Shown: positions 6,159 through 35,670 of the stretch, one piece after another
Numbering within the stretch: the first letter of the stretch is position 1
Layout: every line of letters starts with the position of its first letter
Assembly: GCA_015143295.1 (NCBI GenBank)
Contig: CM026554.1
Span: 48,544,627-48,608,626, forward strand
Direction: 5' to 3'
Length of the DNA: 64,000 nt
Origin: Tetracentron sinense
Taxonomy: Eukaryota > Streptophyta > Magnoliopsida > Trochodendrales > Trochodendraceae
Notes under the pieces: model-generated
Seen by the model: the letters and a program-made list of their open reading frames with translations, nothing else
What the model was told of the DNA's origin: nothing
Databases searched by the model: none
Position numbers and translations under genes: made by a program

Positions 6159-6266
6159 GGAGGTTGGGGGATTCTCGTCGCAGGAGTGATGACACCTGCT
6201 TTGGTGTGGGAAGGGATAGTGATAGAGCAGGTGCATCACCTTGTGACGAGAGTCACTGAAACTTCC
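6159..6266 (+). ncRNA. miR3627-like hairpin precursor, copy 1
   Basis: A stem of roughly 42 pairs. The 5' arm at 6159-6202 contains TCGTCGCAGGAGTGATGAC (from 6175). The 3' arm at 6226-6266 contains GTGCATCACCTTGTGACGAG. The arms pair through the duplex region with few mismatches around a ~24 nt loop. The 5' arm strongly resembles the plant miR3627 family (core GTCGCAGGAGAGATGGCAC, as I recall it). In that family the small RNA is cut from such a stem by DCL1; autoinhibited calcium ATPase mRNAs are reported targets, from memory. Neighbouring copies share flanking sequence, so this is a locus family. Small-RNA evidence is not available from sequence alone. Confidence 0.6.
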
Positions 6267-7040
6267 TTGCTTAAATTCCACCGTTATCCATTATTCATTA
6301 TCCTCCTAAGTATTTCACTAAACTCCAACCCTCATAAATTGTTCTACATTTCTTTTCTTTCTTTCATTTTTAACTTCTTATTTCTGATTATCTGATTTAC
6401 GTATCAAAACCAGGTCGAGGCCGCAATCGTTTGAAACAGAAAAAGAAGTGAGTGTTGTAAGTCTTAATTCTGTAATACATCTTTTCTTCATATATGTTTT
6501 GTCGGTCTCCTCATGAGTCGTCCTTAGAAAGCCTATTTACTTACAATTTTCGCACATTAATTCTCTTGAACCCGAAATCCATACTGGTGGAAGGATCTTG
6601 AGCATCCCATCTAGATCTAGAATTTCGATGGCTGAGAGATGGATGATATATATGATTTTCTTAATAGATATCGTGATTAATTCTATTTTTTTTCTAAGAT
6701 AATATTCTCTCATCAGATCTTTGGTAGATCAAGGTACCTATCTGTCCTTCCAAACCATCTGTTTGGTATGCAATCTCACAAGTTTGGTATTGCCTGAAAT
6801 CCATACCGGTGGAAGGATCTTGAGCAACCTATCTAGATCGAGCTAGAATTTGGATGGGTAAGAGATGGATGATATGATTTTCTTAATGGATATCATGATT
6901 AATTCGCTAGTAGTTCTTTTTTTCTGTCAAATGATCTTCTTGTTAGTTCATGAGATAGTAGGATTAGAAGACTTCGAAAGTATGGATTAAAAGGTTATTT
7001 CCATGCTATGTTTTCCTACATTAAAGAGTGCGGATGATTT
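6267..7040 (+). repeat. 3' flank of miR3627-like unit, copy 1
   Basis: Non-coding. The CCATCTGTTTGGTATG / GGATCTTGAGCA / TTCATGAGATAGTA block is present twice in succession here (about 6570-6720 and 6750-7020). It recurs at 490-760, 8000-8310 and 36045-36310. It may be the 3' part of the primary transcript of the hairpin loci. A CT microsatellite follows at 7081-7112. Confidence 0.5.
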
Positions 7041-7795
7041 GCTGGTTCAGTTTCCTGCCCCTCCTAGCTCCCACCTGTATTCATTTATGCGCTCTCTCTC
7101 TCTCTCTCTCTCTGCTTAAAAGTAGGTCATTTTTGAGGGTTTCAATTCCGAAACACAGTAAATTAACAGTCTAAAGATGATATTGCAAACGAACCACCAA
7201 AAGTGTTAGTTCAGGATAAGTGTCATAGATTTATCACAGACGTCATTTATAGTTCATAATAGTGTCTTAAGAGTATTTAGTTTGTTTTGTAGAGAGATCA
7301 AAGAAGAGAGTCTAAGGTTTACAAAGAGTTTGAAACCCAAATTGCTAAAGGATACCACCCAAGCGGGTAAACCTCCATCCACCCAAAAAAAAAAATCCAA
7401 AAAAAAATGAAAATTTTCCATGTAAATGTATAAGGAGTGGCTTTCTAAACAACTCGAGATTGAGAAAGTTGGTCATGTCTCCCTTCCTCTCGTCAAATTG
7501 TTCACTCAGATCTCTAGGGTTACTGGATTTCATATGTGAATGGTGCTGCTGAGGCTGTTGAACATGTGAGGATAGACTTCTATAACTCTTCTGATCAATT
7601 GCATAAATTTTTTCCCTAATAAACAGATACTCTTTCATAGAATATAAGTTTTTTTTTTCTTTTTTTGCACATTGCATAGAATATAAGATGACTTGATTAG
7701 AAACTAACTCCTAGAAAGCTTCGAGAGAGAGAGAGAGAGATGTCATCTCTTTCTTTCTAGCCCTTCTCTATGGATTGGATCGAGCCAAGAAAGAT
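7041..7795. other. Non-coding stretch between hairpin loci
   Basis: No supported gene. It holds a CT run at about 7085-7112, several A/T runs and a GA run at 7722-7740. GATGTCATCTCTTTC at about 7740 corresponds to the leader seen upstream of the hairpins at 6159 and 13009. The 110-codon minus-strand frame at 7345-7677 is low complexity at its end (FFFGFFF) and has no domain. Confidence 0.4.
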
Positions 7796-7890
7796 TGGAG
7801 GTTGAAGGACTCTTGTCACATGGCACCTGCTTTAATTTGGTGTGGGAAGGGATAGCAAGTGCCATCTAGCGATAAGAGTCCCTGCAACTT
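7796..7890 (+). ncRNA. Decayed miR3627-like hairpin, copy 2
   Basis: Paralogue of the 6159 hairpin: same leader (GGAGGTTG), same loop region (TGGTGTGGGAAGGGATAG) and same 3' arm (CAAGTGCCATCT, then CGATAAGAGTC). The 5' arm has lost about ten bases (CTCTTGTC runs straight into ACATGGCACCTGC), removing the middle of the mature-like sequence. It is probably no longer a proper precursor. Confidence 0.5.
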
Positions 7891-9930
7891 ACTTGCTAAC
7901 TCCTTCATTTGGGTTCTATTGTTTATATATTGCAGTTACAAAGGTGGAGAGAGGGACTTCAAGAGAATCCTATGCTAGTCGGACTCTTATCAATGTCAAG
8001 GTGCCCATTTGAGTACTCATCGATCCAAACCATCTGTTGGGTGTGTGACCTCTCAAGTTGGTATAGCCCGATATTGGATCGGAGGAACTCAAGCATCGGA
8101 CCTAGAGCTAGAATTTGGATGGCTATGAGATAGATGATCTGCTATATATGTTTTTTAACAAGATAATATGATTACTTCTCTAAAATAATCTTCTCTCATA
8201 AGATTTTTGTTAGTTCATGAGATGGTAGCATCAGAAGTCTCTCCAATAGTATGGATTAAAAGGTTTTCTATCCAGCTATGTTTTGCTTTTTTGAAGAGTA
8301 CGGATGTTTGTAAAGCAAATTAAGGAAAATTATTAAAATCCCATTATTATATTTTGATAACAATGATTACAATCCCTTTCTACCACCAACCTATCTGTAT
8401 TCATTTGTCCCCACTGAATGTAGAGACTCTTCTTTGAAGGTTAAGTTATTTTTCTCAAAAAGAGCTGATGATGGAACTTAAAGCCCTAAAAGCTGATGTG
8501 GCAGCCCTCATCTTACAATGAAAATCTGCTTGAGAATTCTATTTTGGAGATTTACTAATAGATTAATTGTGATGCAAATGATTGTAAATAATCCTAAAGC
8601 TGATTTGAGAGTAATGAGACGATCGATGTTAGATTTTGATATTCTCCAAATCTTAGTTAAATCGGGAAGAGATTTTCGACAAGAGATTCTGATCTTATCC
8701 CCTAATTTGCAGGTTAATTGATCACCATACCTCTCAAAGAGAATTCCATCTGTGTGATATATATGCTTGATACAACTCTTTTGCATGCTGCCTTACCTTC
8801 ATCAAGTCATCCAAAACTCCTGAACAATCTTAGTTTGAAACCACAGCCCATATAATCTTCAGTAAATCCGCCTTTTTTCCATTCACAAATGCGTCAAAGA
8901 CCAACCCCTTTGGTGCCATCCTATAAGAAGTCTTGTATTATTTTTTCCATATGCAAGATGACACATTCAGGCAACCAGCAACAAACCGCTCAAGTAAACA
9001 TGGAAGGCATATAAGATTGAACCAATGAGCTCAAGAAGCCTAACATAAGTCAGGAACTTTGTTTTTTATCAGAGAGAGCCGCAATAAAAACATAGGTATT
9101 TATGTTAGTTTCCGCGAGCACTGAATAGGTACCACCTCTCCTCGACTGGAGCCCCCCAATTTCTTCGAATGCTTTTCATTTTGCGACATACATAGAAATA
9201 CATATAAAGTTGTAGTGACATACACCTCTTGGGGTATGCTTAATTAGCTCCCAATTGCTAACATCATGGTACCTGGACGACCTTATTGGCCATTAGACTC
9301 ACCCTGAATATCATACGTAATACTAGAAATGTGGCACCAATTTTGTTTTGGGTTTCCATACGTTTACAGACGCTCCATAGCCCCAAGCACAAAACAACAC
9401 TATGTTAATGGAGCATTAAAGACGTTGATAGAAAATCGACCCTCGGAAGTATTCCATACATTGAAAGTATGTTGTGGATCCATGAATTGTCAGCAACCAA
9501 ATTAGTATCAAGTTTATCTTCTTTTTTTGTTGTTGTTGTTGAAAGAATTAACTTCATGGTTTCTTCACTACTTCAGCCTTTTGCTTGAACTAATTAATAA
9601 TATCAAGGTAGCAATTGTTTTCTTTGTTAGTGCTATCATCTTTTGATTCAACCAATCTCTGTCACTTTAGCATTTTGCTTAGTTATAGTCCACCCTGACC
9701 CCAGATGTTCACTCCTTTTTTTTTAATTATAAGGACACTAGTTATTGGGCCTTTTTCTTCCATCTTTGATCGATTTAATTGTCTGGCGCGTTTCAACATA
9801 ATTGATCCTGGTGTGTAATTGATGTGTTTTAACCGTCTGATCGCAGGGAATGGATCACTTTGTTGGAACTTACAAGATCACTTCATTTGGTAACTCATGA
9901 GCTACTAGATGTTTTGCCATGACAGAATAG
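7891..9930. other. Non-coding; first part is a repeated-unit 3' flank
   Basis: About 7990-8320 is the repeated 3' flank of the miR3627-like unit, and 8370-8520 matches 1120-1450. A piece at 8515-8560 (CAATGAAAATCTGCTTG) matches 36733-36760. The rest, to 9930, shows no gene, domain or clear repeat. Overlapping frames at 8508-8786 on both strands look fortuitous. Confidence 0.4.
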
Positions 9931-10106
9931 TGAAAGGTTAGACAGGAGGACTGTTGTCAATACCTTTGATGGACAAGTAGTAAGGGGCACCAAGCATTGG
10001 AAAGAGATTCCAAATCAAAGTCTGGCTGTCTAAGTGTCTATTTAAGATGATGTACTGTTTTTCTCCTGATGGATTTAGTATACTAAGAGATAATAATGAA
10101 GAAGCT

Positions 10107-10193
10107 GGGAGGAGGCCAGTCGAGAAGAGATGATACACACTGCTATGTTGCACTAGGTTCCATTTCTCCTGCAACAACAGTCCTCTATAACCT
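10107..10193 (-). ncRNA. miR3627-like hairpin precursor, copy 3 (minus strand)
   Basis: Read on the minus strand, the 5' arm (10193 down to about 10150) contains TTGTTGCAGGAGAAATGGAA (from 10177). It pairs with an arm at 10107-10142, with a bulge where that arm has lost a few bases. The upstream leader GGTTATAGAG resembles the leader of the 13009 hairpin (GTTATAGAGAG). A TATA-like TTTATATGAGG lies near 10250 on the minus strand. The mature-like arm keeps the GCAGGAGA core, but the stem is poorer than copies 1, 4 and 5. Confidence 0.45.
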
Positions 10194-10199
10194 ATTTCT

Positions 10200-11204
10200 C
10201 TCACAAACTTCTTCCCATGCCTTCCTGCAATTACACCTCAAATCTCCCTCATATAAATGCAGTGCGAGAATTCGATCCTCTTCATTGGCAGATCTAAGGG
10301 CAGAAGAATATAATTTGTCAACAAAGTAATTGATGTAACATCAATCGAACATGATGCGACGAAGTTTGCGGTGGGAGCTTCACATCTGAGTTAAATCTTT
10401 GAGGTCACAGATATAATTTTTTTTCTTCTTGCAATTAAGACAAATCTTGAGAAAGAGTACTGTTTGGTGATAAACCGATTGATCCCCTCCATTCATATAT
10501 ATAGATATAATTACAAATTTGAAAAGAGATATAAGATATAATGAGAAGATTTACAACTTTTCAAGAGTGAGTACTTAAGGAGATAATATATGTTAATTAT
10601 CTTATCTCATATGAAACTTCTTGTATCGTTATCAGTAATAATTATGAATCTCTTGCTCAGAGACTTCTATCAAAATCACGAGCACCTTTCATGGAAAATT
10701 GGCACTCCCACTTTCATATTTTAATACTTCACTTGTATAAGTGATTGCTTCTTTTGACAGTTTTTGGATTTGTTTAAGAAGATTACTTGCATCGTGCGGT
10801 AATAGTATAGGTCTTCCTTTTAGCATGCATGCCGCGCACTTGAAATGGATACTAGAACAACATTGCATTCTAGAACCATAATGCATTAGTCCCATTCAGA
10901 TGTCTTAGGCCATAATTAAGTCACCCGACAAAAGTTATTCTTATAGGGTTACACATTGGAAGAAAAATGATGATCAATTCAGAAGAAAAAAGATTATAAA
11001 TTGAATGCTTACACTGATGCAGTCAGATTAAATTAGGGTTTCTCTAAGTTGAATTTGGCTTGACTGTAATAGAATGGAAATTTTTGTTTTCAAAGAGATC
11101 ATGATCGACTTTTGATGAAATTGTTGCAAAAGAAGATAAGCATAGTTCCTGTTATTCATTAACTAGTTGATTAATAGAGCTCTTTTGACTTGTTTTGATT
11201 ATCT
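10200..11204. other. Non-coding stretch
   Basis: No gene is supported. 10995-11165 resembles 1655-2120 and 38110-38180 (GATGCAGTCAGATTA / TTTGGCTTGACTG and AGAGATCATGATCGACTT blocks), so it belongs to the repeated unit that carries the hairpins. The rest shows nothing recognisable. Confidence 0.4.
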
Positions 11205-11221
11205 AACTCCACTATTGGGTA

Positions 11222-11395
11222 CACACCAGGGCTTTGTCCCAATGGTAAGTGTATCCCTTCCGTCAGGAAGTGGTTCCGGGTTCCATTCCCGTCAGGGTGA
11301 GAGTCGGTTTACTCTCCACCCGTCCCACTAACTTGAGCAGATACTAACACTCTAACTGGGTTGTGGCCTAACCGCATAAACTGTACCAAAAAAAA
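11222..11395 (+). mobile_element. tRNA-derived SINE with perfect target duplication
   Basis: A ~174 bp element. Its 5' part has a tRNA-like organisation: a box A-like TGGTAAGTG near 11243 and a box B-like GGTTCCGGGTTCCATTCC near 11272. It ends in an A run. It is flanked by a perfect 17 bp direct repeat, AACTCCACTATTGGGTA, at 11205-11221 and 11396-11412. The duplication, A tail and internal Pol III boxes fit a plant SINE mobilised by a LINE. The exact family was not determined. Confidence 0.85.
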
Positions 11396-11412
11396 AACTC
11401 CACTATTGGGTA

Positions 11413-13008
11413 TCTTAACTGAACTGTAAAATCATGAAATTGAATTTTGGCTCACCCCATTTGGTGAATGTGAATAAAGAAATTAGAGAATTAGCATCTC
11501 ATACCAGATGCCATTAGCTATTAAACCCCTCATGATCATAAAGGGGACCCCAAGCATTATCTATGTAATAAGACTAGAGGCACGCGTGACGCTCCCCACG
11601 AGATTGGTTTTGAACTTTTGATAATGACCGTTATAATAACAGTGTTATAACGATCTTCAGTGCCCCATCCTTTACATTGTAATTTTATATACAGCCCATC
11701 CTTATTCTCTTAAACGCAGTTGATTGTTTTAGGCTTTTAGCTTTAGCATCTATTAAGTTGGTCTTACATGCCATACACCATTTATAACATTACAGTACTA
11801 AAACGTATGTCATGTATACAACTAATTAACGAAAAATTGGAAGATTAACAGAAACTAGAAAGATTCACACTTTCATAACAACAATGAATAATGTTAAGGC
11901 CATCGTCTTTTAGAGCCATTATTAGCTAGTATGACCAACCTTTTTTTTTAATAAATCACCAAGTGGGGGTGGGGGTTAGGCGGACTAGGATGACCAACTA
12001 GCCTGGTCTCATCTTTTTCTTGTGAGTTTGCACTACTCGGTAGAAGACTGAGTACTCAACCCATTTTAGGATGTCCTAATAAAATATGACTTAACTACTA
12101 AGTTAATTGGGTCCATTTAATTAACTTTCTAACAGTTCACTTATAGAACGTAACAAAATTGCCATAGGAGAACTGTCTCGTTCTCTAAACGGGGCTGCTT
12201 ATTCAAATCGATCTGGAGTTTAGAAGAGAAAGGTCCAAATTCAGTATTCTCATCTTCTTTTGGATTAAATCCGAGTGAATTCTTCCAGTGCAAAGTGCAC
12301 CTAATGCGCCACACATGTAAGTAGATGCTTCTAAAGATATCTCTTGTGAGGATTCGATTCTTTATCAACCCTCTCTTGAATTCTTTCTAGGGTTATGTGG
12401 GACTAAAAACCATAGGGAATGTTTTCAAGGGAGTGTGTTTGCTCACTTAAGTGACCAAACACCAACCTCATTTAAACACACAAAAACAAAGAGTTTTTTG
12501 GCGAATAATTGGTAGTTTGTAACCCATTTTCAGCTTATAAAGTATATTTTTTTAAAAAAATAAAGTTATTAAATAAAATCAGATTGTTTCTAGCCAAGCC
12601 ATTAATGTAAGTTCAAGGCACTACTCATGGAGGAAGAAAAACTTGCACCCCATCTCATTTTCATCATAAACAAATCCCCAAGACCCATGAAGGTATGCAA
12701 CTAAAGTATAATTAAGTAATTAAATATTGAAACGACGACTCTTAAGTCGCTTGCTCTATGATACTTCTCAAAGCAAGGTGAGTATTGTGTATCATCGATC
12801 ATGATATCTTTATGTAGGTGTTTCGGGCCCCACTGAGTTGCACATCATAAAAAGTTCTTCTCCATAACAAGAGTCTCTATATATAGAGAGCAGCTCACCT
12901 AGAGATATCATCTCATAGAGGGAAGCTTAGCTATATAAGGATAGATATATAGTTATCATACGAATGTCATGATCCAAGGGGAAGAAGAATGACAGAAGAA
13001 AAAAGAAG
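11413..13008. other. Non-coding stretch before the fourth hairpin
   Basis: No gene supported. 11700-11890 matches 2460-2640, and 12340-12600 matches 38270-38500 (GTGGGACTA / GTGACCAAA / CCAACCTCATTTAAACAC). A palindromic TATA-like CTCTATATATAGAGAG at 12871-12886 lies ahead of the hairpin at 13009. The 75-codon frame at 12141-12368 has no recognisable domain. Confidence 0.4.
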
Positions 13009-13122
13009 TTATAGAGAGCTCCTGTCGCAGGAGAAATGACATCTACTGCAATATAGAAGGTAGCTGTCCTCTCTCCTCCACCGCAGTAGGTGTTATTTCT
13101 CCGCGACAGACACTCCTCCAAC
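13009..13122 (+). ncRNA. miR3627-like hairpin precursor, copy 4
   Basis: The 5' arm at 13009-13050 contains CTGTCGCAGGAGAAATGACA (from 13022). The 3' arm at 13081-13122 contains GGTGTTATTTCTCCGCGACA. They pair almost perfectly over the mature-like duplex around a loop of ~30 nt. A TATA-like box and a leader resembling copy 1 lie upstream on the plus strand. Because the stem is so symmetrical, the opposite strand would also give a miR3627-like arm. The 9.1 kb MULE begins 90 bp downstream. Confidence 0.6.
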
Positions 13123-13177
13123 CTCTACGAGACGTTATTGATCGCCATCGCCGGTGCTGCTTATGTGCAATGATTAC

Positions 13178-13211
<34 letters not shown>

Positions 13212-13212
<1 letters not shown>

Positions 13213-13376
13213 GGAAAAGTACGGAAATAGGCTTCGGTTTTTGAATAATTATAGAAACCAGCTCCCTTTTCAGGGAGTTATTTTTTCTAGCCTCCACGCG
13301 TGTGTAGAACTGAAGCGTACGGGAGGACTTGTGAGAATGTCCAAAATGCCCCCGTAAAAACTTAACAGTTTATGTT
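13212..13376 (+). repeat. Left terminal inverted repeat of the ULP1-MULE
   Basis: Begins GGGAAAAGTACGG and runs to about CAGTTTATG. It matches the reverse complement of 22132-22294 with about ten scattered differences, for example in GCTTCGGTTTTTGAATAATT against GCTTCAGTTTTTGAATAATT. The pair is highly conserved, so insertion was probably not ancient. Confidence 0.93.
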
Positions 13377-13679
13377 TCACTGTTCTTTCTCACTATCTCG
13401 AATAGAACTTAGATTACCCTACCTATTTCGAACGAAGAACAGAGATAACCCTTTCACCATCTCGAACAAAGAATACCATTGCATCAGAGATTCCGGTTCC
13501 CTACAAAGTAGATTAATCCTACATCATAGTTTAATTAAAGAAGAAGAAGTGGAAGTAAAGGAAGAAGAATAAGAGGAAAAAGAAGAAGAAGAAGGAACTG
13601 ATTCTTCGTCACTCGTTCCCTACAACCTTCAGATTAAGAGGTATGTGTAAAATATCGAAATCAAACTTCCTTTACACAG

Positions 13680-14140
13680 TTTAAATTCGAGATAATAAGT
13701 CTCGAATTTGTTAGGTTGAATTCGAGATAACCATATAGAATTCGAGATAACAGTCTGGAATTCGAGATGGTTATCTCGAATTCTATATGGTTATCTCGAA
13801 TTCAACCTAACAATCTCGAATTCAGAATTAAGCCTTAATATTTATTAGTGTGAAGAAGGAACTGGTTCTTCCCATGTATTACCCTGTAGGGGAAGGTATA
13901 TTCATTATGGAACCTTAAAATTAACAAAATTGAAACCCTAAAACCTAAGGAACATAAACCCTAAGGAACTAAAACCCTAACGAAGATAAACCCTAAACCC
14001 TGATAGAAAAACCCAATGTTTCTTTCAACATCCTGAATTCGAGAAAACAATCACGAATTCGAGATTATTATCTCGGATTCGAGATAACCATCTCGAATTC
14101 GAGATAACCATCTCGAATTCAGGACTATAATCTCGAAATT
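13680..14140. repeat. Palindromic EcoRI-centred repeat array 1 (sub-terminal, left)
   Basis: Repeats of the palindrome ATCTCGAATTCGAGAT joined by AACCA spacers, in two blocks: 13680-13822 and 14034-14140. The first contains a perfect 42 bp inverted repeat (13710-13751 against 13770-13811). Between the blocks lie telo-box-like AAACCCTAA motifs (about 13943-14003), which recur inverted at 21868-21910. It sits immediately upstream of the ULP1-like gene, so promoter or epigenetic functions are possible; this is inference. Confidence 0.85.
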
Positions 14141-14212
14141 ATGACTATTTATTTTGGAATTCAGTTTTTCTATGTATTACTAAGCAATTTTATTAATACT
14201 TGCAGATTCAAG

Positions 14213-15278: not shown

Positions 15279-15316
<38 letters not shown>

Positions 15317-18752: not shown

Positions 18753-21416
18753 TCATACTTGTGGGATTACATTAGTACATGTTTGTCTATTATGACCACT
18801 TTGTTTGCATCTACCACATCTTACAGTCGACCTTTCTTCGCCCTGTGAAAGAATTCTGTTCTTCTTCGGTCTTCCCGTGCTTCTTTTCTGTACAGGGGGT
18901 TTCATTCGCTTGGTCTCGGCTATTACTTCATCTGGGAGATCCCAATGTTTTTTGTCATGTACCGGATATATTGACTCTTCATAGGTGGCTCGATACATAT
19001 CAGATGTATAGTAGGGAGAAAAGTATGCATACGGATCATGTCGATACTTATTACAGGCAGCCAAAACATGTACACAAGGCAACCCCTGAACATCAAATTT
19101 CCTACAGGTGCAGGTACGTTCAAGAAGCTTAACTGTAGCATTAAATTCTCCCCTCACATAATACTCATACCGAACGATTCCGTCACATTCCAAATAACGT
19201 GCTTTAGCAACTCTCCTTTGCAATTTACCTTCAGCCCATGTTGTTAGGCTTCCATTCATTTCCATCGCTTTGTTATGTCGGTTAAAGAACATTCGTTGGA
19301 TCTTAAGGCACACATCCTCTAAAAGCACTGTGACTGGATATTCTCTCGCTTCCTTAAGCAAACTGTTGATCGATTCAACTATATTAGTAGTTACAATGTT
19401 ATACCTCAGCCCAGGAAAGTATGCGGATGCCCATTTTTCTTTTGGAATTGCAGATAACCATTCATGTGCCTCGGGGTTTACGCTTGCAAGACGTGACATA
19501 AACTCTTGGAACTTGCTGAACATGCATGTCTTTACGGCCAACCAAAATAACGGTTTCAGTCTCTCATCCTTGAATGTTGCATGCATATTCTGGCTAATGT
19601 GATATGAACAGTAACTATGAACTGCATGTGGGAATGCAATGAGGACTTGGCTTATCAAACTAGCGTGTCGATCAGTTATAATGACTAACCCTTCCATGTA
19701 CCCAAGTGAGTCAGCTAATTGTTTTAAAAACCACTTGTAACTGTCATTGTTCTCTGATTCAGCTATTCCATAAGCAACCGGACATATGTGGTTATCACCA
19801 TCAAGTGATGTTGCTATGATTAAGATCCCCTTGTACTTACCCTTTAGATGGGTCCCGTCAACGGCTAATACTCTTCGTAAACTGAGCTGAAAACTTCTGA
19901 TACAAGGTCCAAGGGCCACAAAACACCTTTCAAATGCACCAGTATCTGGATCACTCAATACTGCAGTTACTGTTCCCGAGTTGGTCCTGCGTAGCTCGTA
20001 CAAATAAGCAGGGAGGTCAGCGTACAACTGGTCGTATGATCCTCTAACATTTTCTATTGCAATCTCTCTAGATCTCCACGCTTTCCGATAACTCATTTGC
20101 ACTCCATATTGTTTCCAAACATCATGGATAATCTCTTTGGGCCTAGATGCCACACGACCCTCGATTCGTCCCACGACCATGTCACTAACAACCAAACTAG
20201 ATGCTTGTCGATGATCGGGTCCAGTTAAGGGAAACCCACACGAATGATGTGAATTATAAGTCTTTATCTTGAAAACACCTGACTCATTCACCTTTGATGC
20301 ACGCAGCCTCCAAGTACAATTACCCCCAAGGCACTTAACTACAAACTTTGATTTATTTGAATCCACAACCCTGTATTGGAAGTTTTTTGTCATTGCATAC
20401 TTTGCCAACACATTCTGTAGGCACCTCTTATCTTTAAACAATTGCCCAAGTGAAATATCATCCGCATTCTCGAGTGTAGCTACAAAGCCTGAATGATCGA
20501 AATTCACATAGTCATCATTCTCAATCACATTTGTTGAAGGGCCTTCACTGACTTGCCGAAAAGCAGACCTAGAGGAGCTACGGATATCAACCGTTGGGAT
20601 ATTTAAGCGGATAGGACCCTCATCAACATCGTCTCTGGCAACATCTTCATCTACCTCCACTGAATAATCATAATCATCATCATCATCATCATCATCTTCA
20701 TCTTCATCTTCATCTTCATCTTCAGCATCAGCACATTCACCAATATTAGCATATTCATTATCCTGAACACCACATTCTTCACTATGGTAGTTGTCGCCCC
20801 TGCTGGTATCACCATAATCTGCATATGTGTTAGGCACAAAACAAGTATATTGACTTGGTCTTGTTGTCAAGTCTTCAAAGGGCCAAGGTACGGTTGGTAG
20901 GACAGGGTCGGGAACATAGACCGTAGAAGGCTGAAGGACATGACAAGTATCACCTTCGTTCACATGGGGAACGGCAGTCTCGTTATCAGGAAAACCTTCA
21001 TAACTCAAACAGGGTGGACCACACTGTTGTACTCCCTTTGCAACTTCGGTTACATATATTGGCAAAAGTACATTATGAGTTCGTGCTCGCTCACATTCTG
21101 AAATAAATACCAACAAGTCTTCATCATCTTCAATATCAGTAGGAGGAATTGTCGGGTGTGTAGGGAACATAGACCTCACTCTCATCTCAGTTTCTTCCCG
21201 CCAGGATTTAGTCAATCTATAAACTCTGCTTAAAAGTTGCTCATGTGTCATTCCACTAAACAACTGTATCAATTTCGATTTTCCACCCTCATATACGTGG
21301 GACCTGTCAGGGAGAATCTTCCATTCTCCATCATAACAACAAATCACTAATACATTCATTATCTGCAACATCAAGAAAAAATAATGCAAAAACTCAACAA
21401 TGTCAATGCTTTCCAA
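18753..21416 (-). CDS. MuDR-type MULE transposase, uninterrupted
   Basis: One open frame of 887 codons. The more likely start is Met20 (ATG at 21359-21357), because GATGTTGCAG just before it looks like an acceptor of a leader intron; that gives 868 residues. In 887-frame numbering: an N-terminal MULE domain (VICCYDGEW), an acidic Asp/Glu run (~232-270), a MuDR DNA-binding-like region (~320-405), the MULE catalytic domain with candidate triad Asp520 (AVDGTHLKG), Asp582 (IITDRHAS) and Glu681 (TNIVESIN), a SWIM zinc finger (~769-788, CTCRKF...CVH), and a terminal zinc knuckle Cys867/Cys870/His875/Cys880. It catalyses excision and integration through the terminal repeats. No stop or frameshift is seen, so it may be active. 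Confidence 0.95.
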   Translation of the reverse strand: MESIDIVEFLHYFFLMLQIMNVLVICCYDGEWKILPDRSHVYEGGKSKLIQLFSGMTHEQLLSRVYRLTKSWREETEMRVRSMFPTHPTIPPTDIEDDEDLLVFISECERARTHNVLLPIYVTEVAKGVQQCGPPCLSYEGFPDNETAVPHVNEGDTCHVLQPSTVYVPDPVLPTVPWPFEDLTTRPSQYTCFVPNTYADYGDTSRGDNYHSEECGVQDNEYANIGECADAEDEDEDEDEDDDDDDDDYDYSVEVDEDVARDDVDEGPIRLNIPTVDIRSSSRSAFRQVSEGPSTNVIENDDYVNFDHSGFVATLENADDISLGQLFKDKRCLQNVLAKYAMTKNFQYRVVDSNKSKFVVKCLGGNCTWRLRASKVNESGVFKIKTYNSHHSCGFPLTGPDHRQASSLVVSDMVVGRIEGRVASRPKEIIHDVWKQYGVQMSYRKAWRSREIAIENVRGSYDQLYADLPAYLYELRRTNSGTVTAVLSDPDTGAFERCFVALGPCIRSFQLSLRRVLAVDGTHLKGKYKGILIIATSLDGDNHICPVAYGIAESENNDSYKWFLKQLADSLGYMEGLVIITDRHASLISQVLIAFPHAVHSYCSYHISQNMHATFKDERLKPLFWLAVKTCMFSKFQEFMSRLASVNPEAHEWLSAIPKEKWASAYFPGLRYNIVTTNIVESINSLLKEAREYPVTVLLEDVCLKIQRMFFNRHNKAMEMNGSLTTWAEGKLQRRVAKARYLECDGIVRYEYYVRGEFNATVKLLERTCTCRKFDVQGLPCVHVLAACNKYRHDPYAYFSPYYTSDMYRATYEESIYPVHDKKHWDLPDEVIAETKRMKPPVQKRSTGRPKKNRILSQGEERSTVRCGRCKQSGHNRQTCTNVIPQV

Positions 21417-21492
21417 TAAAGACTTACAATATTAAAAATAGTTCGAATATCGGATAAAATGTGTATCGAATTCACTAAATGTGTTATGCAAT

Positions 21493-26684: not shown

Positions 26685-26724
26685 TTTCGACCCTCAGATG
26701 AACCTGGTTTGCTCTGATACCAGT

Positions 26725-26955
26725 TGTTGGTTTTAAACAAAGAAGCAAGCAGAAAAAACAGAGGAAACCTCAACCCAATTGTTCACGGATTGATTTTATG
26801 GTTCTGCCTTTTCATTTCACTTTAATCACATACTTATACTATTACATGGAGACTCACAAATTCATTGATTGAAATACAACTTCCCAAAAACAGCTAACAA
26901 TAGTAATAGTAAACTAGAAAACTGAAGAGTTTCTGGAAAACATAAATTAACTTCA
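26725..26955 (-). repeat. 5' LTR of the Copia fragment
   Basis: 231 bp, TG...CA on the minus strand, adjoining the primer-binding site. Its outer end abuts the duplicated exon fragment at 26958. Without a second LTR its age cannot be estimated from LTR divergence. Confidence 0.75.
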
Positions 26956-26957
26956 AT

Positions 26958-27111
26958 AGGAACTCCTGCGCGTTACAGATGACAGTGTGGAAGTAGCCTT
27001 CTGGCGAGGAGAGAAAGTTTGCATAGTACATGAGGACTGTTCGGGGAAGGTTGTCCCATCCCCATTTGCAAAAATCAATGAAAGGCCGAGAAAGTGCCAT
27101 CCAAGCAGAAC
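26958..27111 (-). pseudogene. Truncated exon 4 of a duplicated GlcAT14A-like gene
   Basis: From an acceptor-like CTATGAAAG, the minus strand reads SAWMALSRPFIDFCKWGWD and continues through LPRTVLMYYANFLSSPEGYF to NAQEF, where it is cut at the Copia LTR. The functional exon at 45435-44921 has Ile where this copy has Lys (FCIWGWD versus FCKWGWD) and TGACAG where this copy has GAAAG at the acceptor. With no other exons nearby and no 3' end, it is a pseudogene fragment. Confidence 0.88.
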
Positions 27112-28505
27112 CTTTCATAGAAAGCAGAAACCCGGTTACATGGGACAACCACTTAATAGAACGTCTAGCCCCATTCAACATTGCAATGGTAGGATGGTCT
27201 TGAATCAAAGTAATTCTTAAACAATTGCAGTCACGATCCAGAAGATAGTTTTCGTGAATTATCCAACCCCGGGTTCATGCGCTACCCAAATAAGGTCGCT
27301 CACATTTTCCTGCAAGCCATAGTGTTTAACCTAATCTTGTCATGCAATATCTAAAAGTGTATAAGCCAACACGGTTCAATGTAAACAAACAGTTAATGCA
27401 GTTATTTCCCTTTACTATTTGTTAGGTAAGCTAGCATTGAACCTATGAGGCTATGATGTAATATTTGCAGCACGGCACTATCCAACTCAACTGAGAGGCT
27501 ACAACACCACTGAAAATATCCGACAATAAGGCAAAATGCTTTGAAACTTAATTGGAAGTCCTATATAGAGAAATTTGGTTCTATTTGAGGTAATACAGAT
27601 CATTTATTCTCTCTCCGGTAGGCAAGTTAACATTGAACCTATGATATCATATTTGCGACACAGAGCAACATCCAACCCAACGAGGGTCTACAACCCCAAA
27701 TATCCCGCTATAAGGTGATGCACTTAGATATGTAAGTTGGATGGAAGTCTTATTTTGGGAAATATATAAGAAACCAAGAGAGCCTAAGCAGAAGCCACAA
27801 AATGATATGCATGCTCTACCAAGTGCCAACTGATGTTTGCTCATTTGATAAGATCTGATTGTGAAATACCCAATAGACTTGGATAATAAAACCACTCGCA
27901 ATAAGATTCAAGAATAAAATTAAACAAAAATAAAAAAGATACCCATGCTCTAGGATTACCTAATTTTAGGAGAAAATGGAATTGTCTAGTTTGGAAGAAA
28001 AGAGTTGTATGATGGAGGAAATGAAGATGTCGAATGACTTCCACTGCAAACTGGTTATCAAGATCATAGGGCATGGTACATACACTAAACTATTAGGAAG
28101 AGAATGAGACAACTAGCTTTACTGGACAAGGGGCTCCTGCAATTCACCACTAAAAGTGTGGCCACTAAGATTGTTTCAAAGTGCCCTTAGGTGGTGGGAA
28201 GGAGCCTCTTCTTATGGTGTGTTTGTTACAAGAATTACATGCAGGGACACCCATAAGATTTCCTGAGGTGGATCCATACTGCCAGTATTCTTCAACAGCA
28301 GAACTTCATACTCCTACTCCCAGGTAATCGTGTCTGCTAAGGAACCTTGTCCACCACTACTCAAGACATTCATCATTAACACGAACCTGAGTTAAAATGG
28401 ATGCAAAGCGTGGTCCCGTTTTCCAGATAACAACAATTAACTATGGTTGGCAGGAATAATTATGAACCCAATGCAGATAAAGTCTGTGGGTAGTTGTGCA
28501 CACAT

Positions 28506-29280
28506 GTAAAGAAAGTTGGGTTCAATGCCACTATCTACCACTTGTGGCAAGAGCGGAATAATAGAATTTTCAAAAACCAATCTCGGGATGTTGATACTAT
28601 CTCTCTCTATACAGAACGACAACTGCAGTAGGTTTGCTTTCTCCACGCCTCGTGTTGAAGATACTCCAAGCAATTGTGCCTTCTTTGATAATTGGAGCTT
28701 AACCGCTGATTTTTTCATCACCCTCCTGTAGATTCTTGGGCCTTAAACTCAGATGGGTCTCTTCGTGGGAATGTGGCGGGCTTCGGTGGTGTTCTTAGGG
28801 ATCACTTGGGAAATTTCTCGCTGCTTTCGCTGAAGGTTTTGCTCCAGAGGCTATTGACATTATTGAAATAAAAGGCATTATTCGTGGGCTTGCAATGGCT
28901 CGCGACCTTGGGGCAGTTCGGTTGATAGTTTATGCTGACTCTAAATGGGTGGTGGATTCCCTCAATTCTAGATCTGCGCCGCCTTGGAGATGGATGAATG
29001 AACACCGTGAAGCCTTGAGTTTGACGGATTCATTTGAATCTTGCCGCATTACTCATGTCTGGCGAGAATCTAATAGAGCGACGGACTGGCTTGCCAAACT
29101 TTGTCTTGTTAACTCTTCCCTTTTCTTTTCTCGATCTCCGTCTGAAGTTCCTAAGAAGCTCCTTAGTATTCTTGAGGAGGACAAGTCTGGAAAAAGGTAT
29201 CTAAGGTTGTAATCATTTTTATTCAATATATCTGATCGGGGTTTGCCTAACCCCAGCTTACCTTCCAAAAAAAAAAAAAA
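28506..29280 (+). mobile_element. 5'-truncated L1-type LINE insertion with poly(A)
   Basis: Present here and absent from the otherwise matching site at 46826/46827, so both a filled and an empty site can be seen. It encodes the end of a zf-RVT region (IYHLWQERNNRIF) followed by an RNase H domain. It ends in a run of about 16 A. A target duplication is not evident. Confidence 0.85.
28520..29212 (+). pseudogene. LINE RNase H domain fragment
   Basis: Translated pieces show the three acidic positions of RNase H: Asp in ALNSDGSLRG (about 28750), Glu in IIEIKGIIRG (about 28865) and Asp in VYADSKWVVDSL (about 28937). Near 28820 the frame shifts by one base between LRDHLGNF and the next part, so the protein is broken. 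The domain in plant L1 elements removes the RNA strand after reverse transcription; here it is only a remnant. Confidence 0.8.
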
Positions 29281-30042
29281 AGGAATCCAATACATAAATG
29301 CAGCTTAAAAGCATATACAGTGCCACTTACATATGGACATACCAACTGCAAAATGACATATACTGGGTCCACAGGAAATAGATAACTCAATATGCAAGTA
29401 CCAGTTCCAGGTAACCCATATTCAGGAATTAGGAGAACCCAATAACATGGATTAAACAGCTACTTCAAGTTACATGATTACGGTCTTTAAATGATAGGGG
29501 AAAGTCCCATTAGCAGCGCCAAAGAGGTCTAAAAGGGAAGTCTTCATTTCAATGGAGTCTGATCATCCTATTCACGAGGACAGAAACCAGCAGGTAGGCT
29601 GATCGAATTAAAAACTTTGGATTGATAAAGGAGTCTTGCATGGAGGTCAAACACTACCATTGAGAATTATGGCTTTCTTTATTTTGGCAGTTCTTTTTGT
29701 GAGGATCAAGAACACACATTGATTAATTAGAAACCAACATGATAACCCTGGCTATGGAGAGAGATCTGTTTGGTAAATGGTTTAAGGCTTTACTTGGTAA
29801 ATGGTTGTGGCAAGTTGATGAGGAGAGAGAGATAGTCTTTGGAGAAGTCTCAGTGTCTAAATACAGGTAGAGATCTATTTGGGAATCCAGTGCAGAAAAA
29901 GGCCCACATGGTTATGGGCTTTGAACGCCTATCATGAATACCCAGGCGGATTTCCTGAAACAAACTAGATTCAAATTGGGGAATGATCTAGAAAGAAGAC
30001 CTTTTCGTAGTCATCTTATAGTTTTTAGCATAGTTGTTGTGT

Positions 30043-30430
30043 TTGGAATTGCTTAGGCTGAAGCTGAGGCTATAAGGCTCGGTTTGCAAATGATCAGTGC
30101 TAATGGATGAGACCGTGTAATCCTTGAATCAGATTCTAAAGAAATCATGGACTTCCTATCGGGTGCATCCGCGCACAGTCACTGGGAAATTTAGATTATC
30201 CTTGCCGATTCTTTAAGGTTCAGTCAACAATGTTGCGAATGCCACTTAAGATATGTTCCCAGGAGTGCTAATTCAGCAGCCCATAACTTGGGTCAGCAAG
30301 CCCTCATGGCAAGCATAGCTTCACCAGTGAACTTTTCTCTATTCCCTTTCAATTCTCATCCACTCTCAAAGCAAGAGTTGGATACATTGTACAGACAACT
30401 TCTTTGAATTTATTACTACGTTTCAACCAA
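30043..30430 (+). pseudogene. Second LINE RNase H remnant
   Basis: 30052-30410 reads, with internal stops, AEAEAIRLGLQMISANG, then VILESDSKEIMDFLSG, then CECHLRYVPRSANSAAH. This is the C-terminal half of a plant LINE RNase H (catalytic Asp in LESDSKEI; the HxxR-N-AH motif follows). Stop codons at ANG*DRV and HWEI* show decay. Confidence 0.75.
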
Positions 30431-31229
30431 AAAAAGCGCTTCACAAAAAATTGCCACATTTTTTGTTTTTCTTGTTAAAAAAGTGGAAGAGAAGAAAAAT
30501 AAACATAACATTCCCTTATTTTATTATCTAAAAATGCGAGACTACAAAAAGAACACGTGCCTTTTTTTAGAACAGGTCCCCCAACAATCAAAGCATTGAA
30601 TTGAATTAATATAGGGGCATGATTATTTAGTAACCCCCCCCATCATTACACGGTCCCATCCATCAGTGCTAATGGATGGGACCGTGTAATCCTTGAATCA
30701 GATTCTAAAGAAATCATGGACTTCCTATTGGGTGCATCCACGCAAAGTCAGTGGGAAATTTAGATTATCCTCGCCGATTCCTTAAGGTTCAGTTAATAAT
30801 GCCGCAAATGCCACTTCAGATATGTTCCCAGGAGTGCTAATTCAGCAACCCATAACTTGGGTCAGCAAGCCCTCATGGCAAGCATAGCTTTACCAGTAAA
30901 CTTTTCTGTATTCCCTTTCAATTCTCATCCACTCTCAAAGCAAGAGTTGGATACATTGTACGGACAAGTTCTTGAATCTATTTCTACATTTCAATAGAAA
31001 AAAAAAGCTTCATAAAAAATTGTCGCATTTTTTGTTTTTTTTGTTTAAAAAAAAATGGAAGAGAAGAAAAATGAGCATAACATTTCCTTATTTTATTAAC
31101 TAAAAATGTGAGACTATAAAAAAGACACTTGCCTTTTTTAGAACAGATCCCCCCAACAATCAAAGCATTGAATTGAATTAATAGAGGGGCATGATTATGT
31201 AGTACCGCCCACCGCCCCCCATCATTAGA
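30093..31229 (+). repeat. 570 bp tandem duplication containing LINE sequence
   Basis: 30093-30662 and 30663-31229 are direct copies, both starting at CAGTGCTAATGGATG. Both hold the same RNase H remnant and the same A-rich region (CAAAGCATTGAATTGAATTA). They differ at scattered positions. The junction contains a perfect 19 bp inverted repeat (30645-30663 against 30672-30690). Confidence 0.88.
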
Positions 31230-31627
31230 CTACGCAGGGGTGTATAAGGGTCATCAACCCTCTTTAAGACAGAACCTTTTGGATTGGTTGCTTGGGCTTA
31301 TCTAGTGTGAGAGTTATACGATAACATTTCCATTTGAAAAAAAAATTTACATGGTACCAATCAAAAAAGAGTTTGGTAAAGTCTCCCTTTCGCTTATCAA
31401 ATTCTCCAATCAGCTCTTTGGAATTAATGTTACCTCCACATGTGGACGGTGGCGCCAAGCCTTTTAGAACTTACTGGGAAGATGGTTACTTGTGAATCTT
31501 CTCAGGCGCCTTTTGACAATCAAAGACCCACATCCTGTTCGCTTCATTGACGAAAACCGACTCTACGAACGAGAACGAGAGAGAGAGAGATATTGTATCT
31601 ATATATATATATATATATATATAAATT
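31230..31627. other. Short non-coding stretch left of the second MULE
   Basis: No gene recognised. 31350-31460 resembles 7400-7530 (CATGGTACCAATC / GTCTCCCTTTCG / TCAAATTCTCCAATCAGCTC-like), so it belongs to the repeated unit near the hairpin loci. A TA dinucleotide run at 31600-31622 abuts the MULE end. Confidence 0.4.
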
Positions 31628-31989
31628 GGGGAGGGATCCGTAGACATATGGGAAAAAACATATATGTTCACATATGACAACATCCGTCCGATTAAAGGAT
31701 CTAACGGACATCATTCTAATATACTTTTTAGGTGGTAAGGGCTTTTAAGGAAATTTGAGTTTCTTTTTAGAGGACTCGTCTCCTTCTTCTTAGAAGCCTC
31801 AAAAGAAGAAAACACTCTCTCCAGCGTTCTCTCTCTCTCTCTGGACCGTTTCTCTCGTGTTCAACGGGGACGGAATTGAAAACAAGGATTTTGAAAGATT
31901 CTGGACTGATCTCAATCTCCCCCTTGGGAAAGGGCTGAAAAGAGAGATTTCCGACAGCTTCTTCTCCGGCGATTTCCGGCCAGAACAGG
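31628..31989 (+). repeat. Left terminal inverted repeat of the FAR1-type MULE, with leader exon
   Basis: Pairs with 35094-35479 over about 360 bp, interrupted by a CT or TA/GA microsatellite in the middle. The repeat ends exactly at GAACAG followed by GTATGTTTTC, a good splice donor. The terminal repeat therefore probably supplies the promoter and a non-coding first exon. Confidence 0.85.
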
Positions 31990-33248
31990 TATGTTTTCTT
32001 TTTCTTTGTCTTCTCCTATTATTTCCGACCAAGAATACACATTAGTCTCGCTGCTGGCGTCACCATTTTAAAAATAATAGCGTTTGCATGGATTTAAATT
32101 TTAGAGAGAGAGAGCAATGTCGGAGAGAGAACTGAAGCATCACCAACATCTCTCCAGTGATTTTTGTTGTTAAATGTGTGGTTGTTTTGTCTTCATATTT
32201 TGCCGCAGTGTGCCGTTTTATTTTTTTTGTTAGATGCAAACATCTCTTCTGGGATTGGAACTTCCATGAACAGTTTCAGTCCATCTTCATGATCGAAGTT
32301 GGGGCAAAGCTTCCTCGTGAGGAAGGAGGGTAGAGGAGTCTATTGACAGATGTTCAGAATGCAATTGTGGGGTACTGGAAAATAACGTGGGATATGGATG
32401 TGCATAGAATGTCTTGCAAAAGTATCGTGACCTATGGCAAGTCTCAGTCATTTACACATATATCAAGTATGTGGTGCATAGAAGATCTTGCAAAAAATAT
32501 CGTGACCTAGGGTAGGAAAAAGAGGTAGTTTTATAGGTAGTTATAGCCTATAGGCCTTCATCCCTTCCTATGCAAAAAAACTTTTGATGTGTAACCCCTT
32601 TGCATCTTGCATGATTATATCTCAAGCCAATTTGTTTGGAAAGGTAGATATGATGAGAGTTTAGAGTATATGTTCATGTACAGAAACATGATTTTATCTC
32701 AAACTTGGGTTGTATCTATGGCTACCTGTAAAGAAACTAGGATCCACCATTCAATGAATCACACCTTCATAGATTAAGAACCAACATAATATTCCTAACC
32801 TTTTGAACTATTTCATTCTATTCAAATGGTATGATGGAAAATACAGCAAACAATCTAAGAAGTTTATACAATTGAAGATTAGTTCCTAACTCATTTGAAT
32901 CTGCAGATGTACACTCCAAATTTGACCACTAAGTTATTAAGGTCTTAAGATGGACACAATTTGTGAATATAATTTAATTTGCTAAACCACAACTTCTTGG
33001 AGAGGCCATAACAAGTAACAATCATGCCAATCCAACAATCCTAAGCCTCTTACAGTTTTCCCAATGTTTGATCGATGCCATATAGGTAATCATTATCTGC
33101 TCATGACCCAAAAGAATGCTTAAAATATACACAATACATCTAGTTCTTAACATAATTTCTTTTAGTTTTAACATTACTTTTGTTAATTTCTTATAGAAAA
33201 TGTGATATGTGTTTTATTTTATGTATGCAGTGTAGACCTAGTTTAGGG

Positions 33249-34069
33249 ATGGCTATATTGGATGTTGAAAGTTGTATGATTTTGGAAGAAGGCGAGAAAA
33301 GTGATGAGATTGGAACATTGTCGCCTCAAAATGAGAACATTGATTTAGGTGATTCGACTTCAAATAAGGCTACCAAAAAAGTTAATGCGCCATATGTGGG
33401 GATGCACTTCGATTCAATTGAAGAAGCAAGGAATATTATGAAGAATATGGTCGATATAATGGGTTTTCAATTCGAGTTCGATCTTCAGACAAAACTCGAG
33501 GATGTGTAAATGAAGTAACTGGAGTCAAACTTGTATGCTCACATGAAGGACATCACAAGAAGTCTGTAGAAGTTGCTGCCGACAGTACAAGAAAAAACTG
33601 TTCTACCTTAAAATATGGTTGTATGGCTACTATGCGGATTATGAGTCTAAACGAAACCACTAAGTGGAAAGTTACAAAAAAATTTGACGAGCACAATCAC
33701 AAGTTTGTCACTCCGCGAAAGAGGGTGCGAATGAGGTATAATAGACACATGTCTGATGCAGCAAAGGATTTGACAGAGACTTTTAGTAGAAAGAACTTGC
33801 AAGTATCCAAAGTTGCATCAATTTTTCGTGGGGATAAGATTGGGTTTGACGGTAGAGACTGTTGGAATCATTTGCGAGCAGTTAGGCATAAAGACTTAGA
33901 AGTGGGTGATGGGCAATCAGTTCTTCACTACTTTAGAAAGAAGCAAACAGAGTTAAGAAAGACTGATTACAATTGTATTGATTGTCAAATTAGATGGTGC
34001 CCATACTTGTGTTCTTGCAATTTTTCCAAATTCATTTATAAATGTAAAATGGTTCAAATTCAAAGTTAA
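33249..34069 (+). pseudogene. FAR1-type DNA-binding domain gene, frameshifted and truncated
   Basis: A TTATGTATGCAG acceptor at about 33231 precedes ATG 33249 (MAILDVESC). The frame then gives PYVGMHFDSIEEARNIM, the start of a FAR1 domain. At about 33460 the reading must move one base to continue as GFSIRVRSSDKTRG and VKLVCSHEGHH. The rest of the domain follows at 33623-33950 (HNHKFVTP, then DGQSVLHYFRKKQ). FAR1 domains are MULE-derived zinc-binding DNA-binding modules. The catalytic region that should follow is absent, and no splice explains the shift. Confidence 0.75.
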
Positions 34070-34081
34070 GCAATTTTTCCT

Positions 34082-35093
34082 CTTTTTTTTTTCCCTTTTC
34101 CAATGAACTCCAAAGCTTTCATTTGGATGCCTAGATTCCTTTTTTCCTAGTTCTGGTCCTTTTTATTAAAATTATGGATACGAAGGAGCAAGAATCTATG
34201 AATATGCACCTTTGTGTTGAGGTACTTTTCTTGGAGGTTTCTTGATAATTGATCAAATCGAAATTAAGCAGGGGGTGTAGCTGCGCAACATACATTCCAG
34301 CTATGCTTTATTAGTGGATTTCGGGTCGTATTGATACGAGTCATAAGACCATGTGACTGAATGGTGTGTGTTCGACTTTAAAAAAAAAAAAAAGACTCTT
34401 AAGTGTGTGCTTAGTGCTTACTCAAATAGGGTAATCAATGGAAGTGTGTGTTTGTCATCTTCCTCCAAAAAGAGGGCAGCCCCAAATCCAACATAAGCAC
34501 AAGCAAAAGCAATACACAGTAAGCTTTTCATCCAAACTCAATTCTAACCATTACAGCGCACCACACAAATATCCTGAGATGTAGAATTTGTGAAAGTGTT
34601 GAGTTGGGACCATTCTTGTCTAACTCAAAGTGTTGGGTTAGTTTGTATCCAAAAGTCCCAACATTAAGTTATGGTAGATGATGTAGGTGTTCGATGGTTG
34701 CTTACTTTCATGGCTAGTGCCTCTTTAAGCCTCAAAGCATGCCCGGTGGTGAGTCTATCAGATTAATGCAATTCAAGCCATCTATTAGTAAAAAAATATA
34801 TTTGAAATTTAATAGTCCTATTGCCTTTTGTGGTTCACTCGGCCATTTTATCAAGCAAAGGAGATGTAACATGACAATGCATCCATTTGTTCAAAAACAT
34901 GAGCAATCTGATATAACAATACAGCTGCACAAAGGGGTCCAATAACACCAGGAATCTGAAACCGCTTATTTGGCAATATAACAATACAGCTGCACAAACC
35001 AATGACACCAGGAATCAACGGATTTCTTCAAACCATGTACGAAACCATGAATGAATCCCTCAATCAACGGATTTCTCCAAAAAGAGAGCAGCC
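34082..35093. other. Interior of the FAR1-type MULE without genes
   Basis: No gene supported. An A run follows at about 34379-34393. A short direct repeat (ACAATACAGCTGCACAAA) occurs at about 34917 and 34981, and ATCAACGGATTTCT occurs at about 35014 and 35062. These look like remains of deletion and filler events within the element. Confidence 0.45.
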
Positions 35094-35479
35094 CCTGTCT
35101 TGGCCAGAAATCGCCCGAGAAGAAGACGTCAGAAATCTCTCTTTTCAGCCCTTCACCAAGGGGGAGATTGAGATCATTCCGGAATCTTTCAAAATCCTTG
35201 TTTTCAATTCTGTCCCGTTGAACACGAGAGAAACGGTCATATATATATATATATACATATATAGAGAGAGAGAGAGAGAACGCTGGAGAGAGTGTTTTCT
35301 TCTTTTGAGGCTTCTAAGAAGAAGGAGACGGGTCCTCTGAAAAGAAACTCAAATTTCCTTAAAAGCCCTTACCACCTAAAAAGTATATTAGAATGATGTC
35401 GGTTAGATCCTTTAATCGGACGGATGTCATCATATGTGAACTTATATGTTTTTTCTCATATGTCTACGGATCCCTTCCC
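35094..35479 (-). repeat. Right terminal inverted repeat of the FAR1-type MULE
   Basis: Inverted copy of 31628-31989, for example GGGAGATTGAGATCATTCC against its counterpart and AGAAGAAGGAGACGGG against CTCGTCTCCTTCTTCT. It ends 88 bp before the hairpin at 35568. Confidence 0.85.
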
Positions 35480-35567
35480 ATATATATATATATATATATA
35501 TATATGTGGTATACGCGACATGGAATTCATAGAGGACTAGGAAAAAAGAAAGAAAGGAAGGAAGATA

Positions 35568-35670
35568 GGAGGTTGGGGAGTCTTGTCGCGGGAGAAATGA
35601 CACTTGCTCTGGTTCTGGGATAGTAAGGGATAGCAAGTGCCATCTCCCTGCGATAAGAGATCCTTCACCT
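35568..35670 (+). ncRNA. miR3627-like hairpin precursor, copy 5
   Basis: The best-preserved copy. The 5' arm at 35568-35610 contains TTGTCGCGGGAGAAATGACA (from 35583). The 3' arm at 35631-35670 contains GCAAGTGCCATCTCCCTGCG, followed by ATAAGAGATCC. The stem has about 40 positions with few mismatches and a short loop. The mature-like 5' sequence differs from the miR3627 sequence I recall (TTGTCGCAGGAGAGATGGCA...) at about three positions. Downstream, 36045-36310 repeats the 3' flank of the other copies. Confidence 0.65.

Follow-up and report, generated by a model that had tools for sequence, protein, structure and literature searches.

A locally amplified array of MIR3627/MIR5225-like hairpins in graded states of decay in Tetracentron sinense

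Hairpin copies and array structure

Five related hairpins resembling microRNA (MIR) genes of the MIR3627 and MIR5225 families lie within a 64,000-nucleotide stretch of the Tetracentron sinense genome (hereafter the window), which spans positions 48544627-48608626 of contig CM026554.1 (C4) in a 1.16 Gb genome. A first-pass annotation had proposed five such copies, and all were recovered at those places by a covariance model, with copies also linked to one another by BLAST. Three copies, all on the plus strand, appear intact: c1 (6163..6265, with a 22-nucleotide (nt) arm at about 6175-6196), c4 (13010..13125, arm at about 13022-13043), and c5 (35571..35672, arm at about 35583-35604), which score 88.4, 81.9, and 82.8 bits, respectively. 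The other two are decayed: c2 (7801..7891, plus strand, 65.5 bits) has an arm shortened by an internal deletion, and c3 (10102..10189, minus strand, 33.6 bits, E = 2.2e-6) has kept its arm sequence. Because the model was built from eight sequences that included c1, c2, c4, and c5, these four match it by construction, and only the match of c3, which was left out, is independent.

Comparison with 200 dinucleotide shuffles graded the hairpins by stability. Strong hairpins are formed by c1, c4, and c5 (fold z-scores of -8.4, -7.6, and -5.0), in agreement with their earlier description as fit for processing, and c2, with its shortened arm, is weaker (-3.3). The fold of c3 (-0.9) is shuffle-like, given that 34 of the 200 shuffles folded equally well or better. 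Exact GTCGCAGGAG is limited to c1 and c4, variants of it occur in c3 and c5, and in c2 it is interrupted by the deletion. With zero to two changes, a CGCAGGAGAGAUG-type core is present in the 5' arm of c1, c4, and c5 and of four hairpins elsewhere in the genome (C10, C18p, C18m, and C23, described below), with fold z-scores ranging from -5.0 to -8.8 across these seven.

The array extends beyond the window. A BLAST comparison over 154 kb of C4 detected six further copies upstream, namely A' (C4:48505122), c1' (48513867), c2' (48515550), c3' (48518022, minus strand), c4' (48520774), and c5' (48530046), such that the array on C4 comprises 11 copies over approximately 75 kb. The arm of A' has been lost by deletion (fold z-score of -1.05), and c5' has lost one arm base and still folds well (-3.6).

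An assembly gap of 73 N (C4:48544554-48544626) directly abuts the window start, and the sequences that flank it (window positions 1-2120 and C4:48537996-48544553) repeat each other at 87-92%, with 152 and 210 gap openings. This repeat of approximately 6.6 kb is probably a false assembly duplicate. A twelfth, copy-1-like hairpin within it (c0, C4:48543912), presumably false as well, was not counted because it lies at the N gap in indel-rich sequence and because a separate contig, C977, crosses the junction without it. Contig C977 (60,633 bases) is about 97.7-97.9% identical to C4 over the longest stretches, lacks the repeat at the junction, and probably represents an alternative haplotype of the array. 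It carries nine copies: A', c1, c2, c3, and c5', together with a second c1, c2, and c3 with c4; a proximal c4 is missing from it.

Parts of the array are repeated as larger blocks. The segment with c1 to c4 (5745..13204, plus strand) is the distal duplicate of a proximal block outside the window (C4:48513512-48521028; 97.8% identity over 7.5 kb), and the segment with c5 (35505..37922, plus strand) is that of the block with c5' (C4:48530046-48532423; 94.2% over 2.4 kb). Within the part carrying c1 to c3, substitutions amount to 0.88% between the proximal and distal blocks of C4 and 0.11% between the distal blocks of C4 and C977. The low substitution level points to a recent duplication within the array. 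The proximal block of C977 differs by 0.39% from the distal block of C4 and by 0.90% from the proximal one, and since it is thus nearer to the distal than to its positional counterpart (four sequences compared), the pattern suggests gene conversion or unequal exchange.

Related loci off C4 comprise one hairpin on C10, two on C18 (C18p and C18m), and one on C23. The C18 pair is arranged head-to-head, 1.6 kb apart (C18:28417363, minus strand, and 28418962, plus strand), mirroring the order of c3 (minus) and c4 (plus). Comparison of open reading frames around the C4 and C10 loci yielded short matches and the hairpin itself, and nothing more that would indicate synteny. Genome-wide DNA searches with c1, c4, c5, the C23 hairpin, and c3 returned at least 9, 4, 10, 3, and 5 places, respectively, these counts being lower bounds because the search passes over very common words; c2 was searched across the genome as a 22-letter pattern only.

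Family identity and sequence evolution

A default Rfam scan of the window gave no hits at the gathering scores, which are 64 for MIR3627 (RF03600) and 72 for MIR5225 (RF03517). When 4,227 Rfam models were scanned with an E-value threshold, MIR3627 and MIR5225 were the top families of c1 to c5, C10, C18p, C18m, and C23. In the window, E-values were 1.1e-6 for c4 on the minus strand (1.8e-6 on the plus strand), 4.3e-6 for c5 on the minus strand (2.6e-5 on the plus strand), 1.9e-5 for c1, 4.3e-4 for c3, and 0.0016 for c2, whose sole match is on the opposite strand. We refer to these hairpins as MIR3627/MIR5225-like, rather than as members of either family, because they fall below the gathering scores.

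A tree of the 11 hairpins separated two clades at 100/100 support: clade A (c1, c2, c5, c5', A', and C10) and clade B (c3, c4, C18p, C18m, and C23). Within clades, only c5 with c5' (96/95) meets both support limits, and c3 with C18p reaches 94/90. The head-to-head pairs, c3/c4 and that on C18, are both composed of clade B genes. In clade A, bit scores were higher for MIR3627 than for MIR5225 (C10, 41.5 vs 29.9; c1, 36.3 vs 21.4; c5, 35.8 vs 21.4), and c2 matched MIR3627 at 29.9 bits on the opposite strand only. The preference is reversed in clade B for C23 (47.4 for MIR5225 vs 30.5 for MIR3627), C18p (42.4 vs 32.5), and c3 (32.9, with MIR3627 unlisted). Exceptions are C18m, for which the two are about even (43.7 and 44.4), and c4, which favours MIR3627 (40.4 vs 34.8). 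As judged from these scores and the tree, clade A is MIR3627-like, clade B as a group is closer to MIR5225 (c4 being MIR5225/MIR3627-like), and both stand side by side in the array.

Comparison with published mature sequences pointed the same way. We take peach miRC9 to be miR3627. The seven undamaged arms are identical to peach miRC9 or peanut miR5225 at 16-19 of 22 positions (16-18 of 22 for c1, c4, and c5), based on the sequences printed in the accessible text of PMC3542160 (peach miRC9, UCGCAGGAGAGAUGGCACUGUC) and PMC5335773 (peanut miR5225). With MIR3627 the copies share the arm position and the stem; it is the best Rfam match of clade A, with 17-18 of 22 arm positions identical in c1, c5, and C10, and a Ca2+-ATPase target such as that reported for it in grape has a counterpart in the ACA10-type site described below. 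They differ from it by the diverged 3' third of the arm, the sub-gathering score, and their arrangement in an array of 11. MIR5225 is the best match of C23, C18p, and c3, with 18-19 of 22 arm positions identical in c4, C18p, C18m, and C23, and differs by the sub-gathering score and in that c4 is nearer to MIR3627 and C18m about equal. A third relative, miR4376 of tomato and other Solanaceae, is described in the accessible text of two reports as a 22-nt trigger of phased small interfering RNAs (phasiRNAs) on ACA10 (PMC4211545, PMC5902766), the same kind of target and the arm length that are predicted here; the peanut miR4376 sequence is identical to the undamaged copies at just 13-16 of 21 positions. 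The array is best read as a local amplification within an established superfamily, miR4376/3627/5225, rather than as a novel type of system. The kinship with miR3627 proposed in the first-pass annotation is supported by the top Rfam match, the published arms (16-18 of 22), and the ACA10-type site, and falls short at the gathering score.

Sequence change is distributed unevenly along the hairpin. Across eight hairpins (c1, c4, c5, c5', C10, C18p, C18m, and C23; c2, c3, and A' excluded), identity was 82% in the 5' arm, 67% in the 3' arm, 48% in the outer stem, and 29% in the loop, with gaps counted as differences. Under a structure derived from the same eight sequences, 90.8% of cells were paired, 10 of 26 stem pairs had changed on both sides, and the covariation score was 0.365; none of 500 shuffles was as high for any of these three measures. 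Structures slid along the alignment gave 0-3 pairs, a fairer control because the shuffles ignore relatedness. The hairpins appear, from these patterns, to have evolved in a microRNA-like manner.

Predicted ACA10 target

We assessed potential targets with a 19-letter core pattern, which matched four places in the genome exactly: C10, C18, C23, and C19:29558343. Three of these are the hairpins themselves (C18 and C23 in clade B, C10 in clade A), and the C19 place is in antisense, as targeting requires. Eight places had one mismatch (c1, c1', c4, c4', C18m, and three on C977), and 47 had two, including c5, many of them perhaps by chance (a reversed-pattern control gave 28 in all). An ACA8/10-type Ca2+-ATPase gene bears the C19 place in its leader, where 16-17 nt separate the near-perfect site from the ATG. 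Exon 1 of this gene reads MTTSSKDSPYHRRYDVEAG...LRRWR, and a same-strand exon 18 kb downstream continues QAALVLNASRRFRYTLDL; we infer that the two join into one gene. A corresponding site position has been reported for grape, in which miR5225, miR3627, and miR4376 target an ACA10-type leader 14-40 nt before the ATG, according to the accessible part of PMC6404619.

The best site scores on the C19 leader (lower being better) were 1.5 for C18p and C23, 2.5 for c4, 3.0 for c1, 3.5 for C10 and c5, 4.0 for C18m, 4.5 for c3, 5.5 for c5', and 11 for c2. Pairing of c3 with the site is weak. The c2 score equals the best of 20 shuffles, so its pairing has been lost. When the search was confined to 1.5 kb around each of 14 PF12515 loci, no site scored 6 or below, because exon 1 lies further upstream. 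Three other ACA8/10-type genes were found, two on C15 and one on C9. In both C15 leaders, a decayed form of the site persists near the ATG; none was seen at the C9 gene.

Promoter matches, duplex shape, and proposed mechanism

Putative TATA boxes, identified as matches to the consensus TATAWA only, precede the intact copies. For c1, they lie at 6044..6110 (plus strand), upstream of the arm by 72, 131, and 133 nt, and the distances are 78-146 nt for c4 and 86-104 nt for c5. Matches 72-147 nt before the arm were found in c1, c4, c5, C10, C18p, and C23 (for C23, 188 nt were available), and none occurs within 300 nt upstream of c2, c3, and c5'.

An asymmetric 22/21 duplex favours 22-nt products and triggering of phasiRNAs. 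Such a duplex was predicted in seven of seven registers for c4, c5, C10, C18p, and C18m and in three of seven for C23. Predictions for the other copies were 22/20 for c1, 22/22 for c5', 22/25 for c2, and, for c3, 22/22 in three registers and 22/21 in four.

These features suggest a working model in which each intact copy would rely on a TATA promoter of its own for transcription, and DCL1 would release the 5' arm as a 22-nt RNA, aided by the asymmetric duplex. AGO1 could then slice the leader of ACA10 shortly before the start codon, and slicing might initiate phased siRNAs and lower Ca2+ pump output; the cleavage and secondary siRNAs are proposed on account of the duplex asymmetry and the miR4376 reports. 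Decay has taken different routes in different copies: loss of the arm in A', of the middle of the arm in c2, of a good stem in c3, and of one arm base together with the 22/21 asymmetry in c5'.

Interpretation and alternative explanations

We consider it likely that the locus is an amplified MIR array of the miR4376/miR3627/miR5225 superfamily, with intact copies that would be functional and would target ACA10. Several observations weigh against this. No copy reaches a gathering score, the best being c4 in the window (40.4 of 64) and C23 outside it (47.4 of 72), and c4 and c5 score slightly better on the opposite strand in Rfam, as some top scores do because the hairpins are near-palindromic. 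Roughly 10% of 80-bp segments in this region contain a TATAWA match. Duplex asymmetry does not cleanly separate intact from decayed copies, since c1 is 22/20, C23 is disturbed in four of seven registers, and c3 is 22/21 in four of seven. Of five measures of stem pairing, the count of further pair types was no higher than in shuffles (22 vs 22.0; 334 of 500). In the miR3627 register, in which the guide starts with TCGC, the mismatch with the C19 site falls at position 10 for c1 and at position 11 for c4 and c5, which is where slicing takes place. If the guide is read in the miR5225 register, the same mismatches shift to positions 14-15, but two or three others arise at its 5' end. C18p and C23 pair better with the site and could suffice alone. 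In apple, the only miR3627 target given in the accessible text of one degradome study is an amino acid transporter (PMC3446319), and that of another study names AT-hook genes along with a pump of the ACA8 type (PMC4523022).

The most serious competing explanation, which we nevertheless regard as unlikely, is that the array is mostly a graveyard: C18, C23, and C10 would make the working microRNAs, and the C4 copies would be silent relics kept fresh in appearance by recent duplication. It would account for the damage in c2, c3, c5', and A', for the transposon fragments around the array, and for the superior match of C18p and C23 to the ACA10 site (1.5, with no mismatch at positions 10-11, unlike c1, c4, and c5 in the miR3627 register). 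With just 0.88% divergence between the proximal and distal blocks, the sameness of the array is also in part a matter of youth. However, c1, c4, and c5 are well diverged from one another and yet retain the stem, the arm, and a TATA match, and neutral decay would be expected to have eroded them as it has c2 and c3. Near-palindromic structure, significant covariance scores on both strands, the setting among transposon fragments, and a report that grape MIR3627 is not stranded and phased (accessible part of PMC6404619) would also suit inverted-repeat or miniature inverted-repeat transposable element (MITE) relics yielding 24-nt siRNAs in place of microRNAs. We find this barely plausible, as conservation is concentrated in the 5' arm and an independent target site occurs at the known position. 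A MITE or transposon origin was rejected because copy numbers are too low: the hundreds of copies expected of a MITE family, which the first-pass annotation had named as evidence against its own view, did not appear, with at least 3 to at least 10 places returned per search.

A very improbable scenario is that array members have drifted to new targets, such as the diverged C15 ACA paralogues. The decayed sites in the C15 leaders, on which c4 and c5 score 6.0 at one gene (C15a) vs 7.0 for C18p and C23, and c5' scores 6.0 at the other (C15b) vs 8.5-10.5 for all others except c2, would fit such drift. Usual target-score cut-offs are about 4-5, and these small gains of c4, c5, and c5' stay above them. 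A score of 6 is reached at the C15b leader by c2 as well, but the best duplex of c2 there does not coincide with the homologous site. Co-evolution between array members and the paralogue sites was likewise rejected, given that C18p and C23 rank first by duplex energy at C19, C15a, and C15b alike (mononucleotide shuffles, 100 and 20 per case). A new target for the changed arm of c2 was sought and rejected, with no place within two mismatches beyond its own copies and seven at three, in a pattern search that allowed neither bulges nor G-U pairs.

Under the interpretation as an amplified MIR array, the birth and death of microRNA genes posited by the first-pass annotation can be read from a young segmental duplication, the loss or shortening of the arm in A' and c2, and the 1-nt deletion in c5'. 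At a single locus, copies of one microRNA gene family grade from intact through weakened to broken, in a genome that also holds the presumed target and target paralogues with decayed sites. In combination with small-RNA reads, the locus could show which lesion is the first to silence a MIR gene and whether a Ca2+ pump regulator is retained at increased dosage. The array is of interest for MIR gene turnover also in that relatives of two separately named Rfam families adjoin within it. The origin and turnover of another, recently evolved family, MIR1444 in Salicaceae, have been traced by genome comparison (accessible part of PMC5223194); in contrast to MIR1444, the array described here joins two sister lineages. 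No published tandem array of MIR3627 or MIR5225 was found in the titles and abstract openings of the open-licence papers listed. A more elaborate history, which we think quite unlikely, would derive MIR3627- and MIR5225-type genes from one linked, anciently tandem pair and combine this with stepwise MIR decay, in which a one-base deletion would have converted a 22-nt form able to trigger phasiRNAs (c5) into a symmetric one, presumably of 21 nt, that is unable to do so (c5'); such a gene might drift in step with the decay of the sites in the duplicated ACA leaders.

Neighbouring features

Domains were scanned in 10 of the 31 window frames of at least 110 amino acids. An 892-amino-acid open frame at 18756-21431 (minus strand) encodes MULE transposase, MuDR, and SWIM domains. 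Pieces of a Core-2/I-branching enzyme occur at 44924-45598 (minus strand, end of the profile) and 57827-58429 (minus strand, start of the profile), and may belong to a single gene that has a long intron and in which an exon has been duplicated. The stretches at 26959-29768 and 45283-47324 form a pair that is 95-98% identical piecewise. Beside c4, a 59-nt inverted repeat without a spacer (13702-13819, 92% complementary) consists of GAATTCGAGATAACC-like units, and a 216-nt inverted repeat (31627-31842 and 35265-35480, 96% complementary) ends just before c5.

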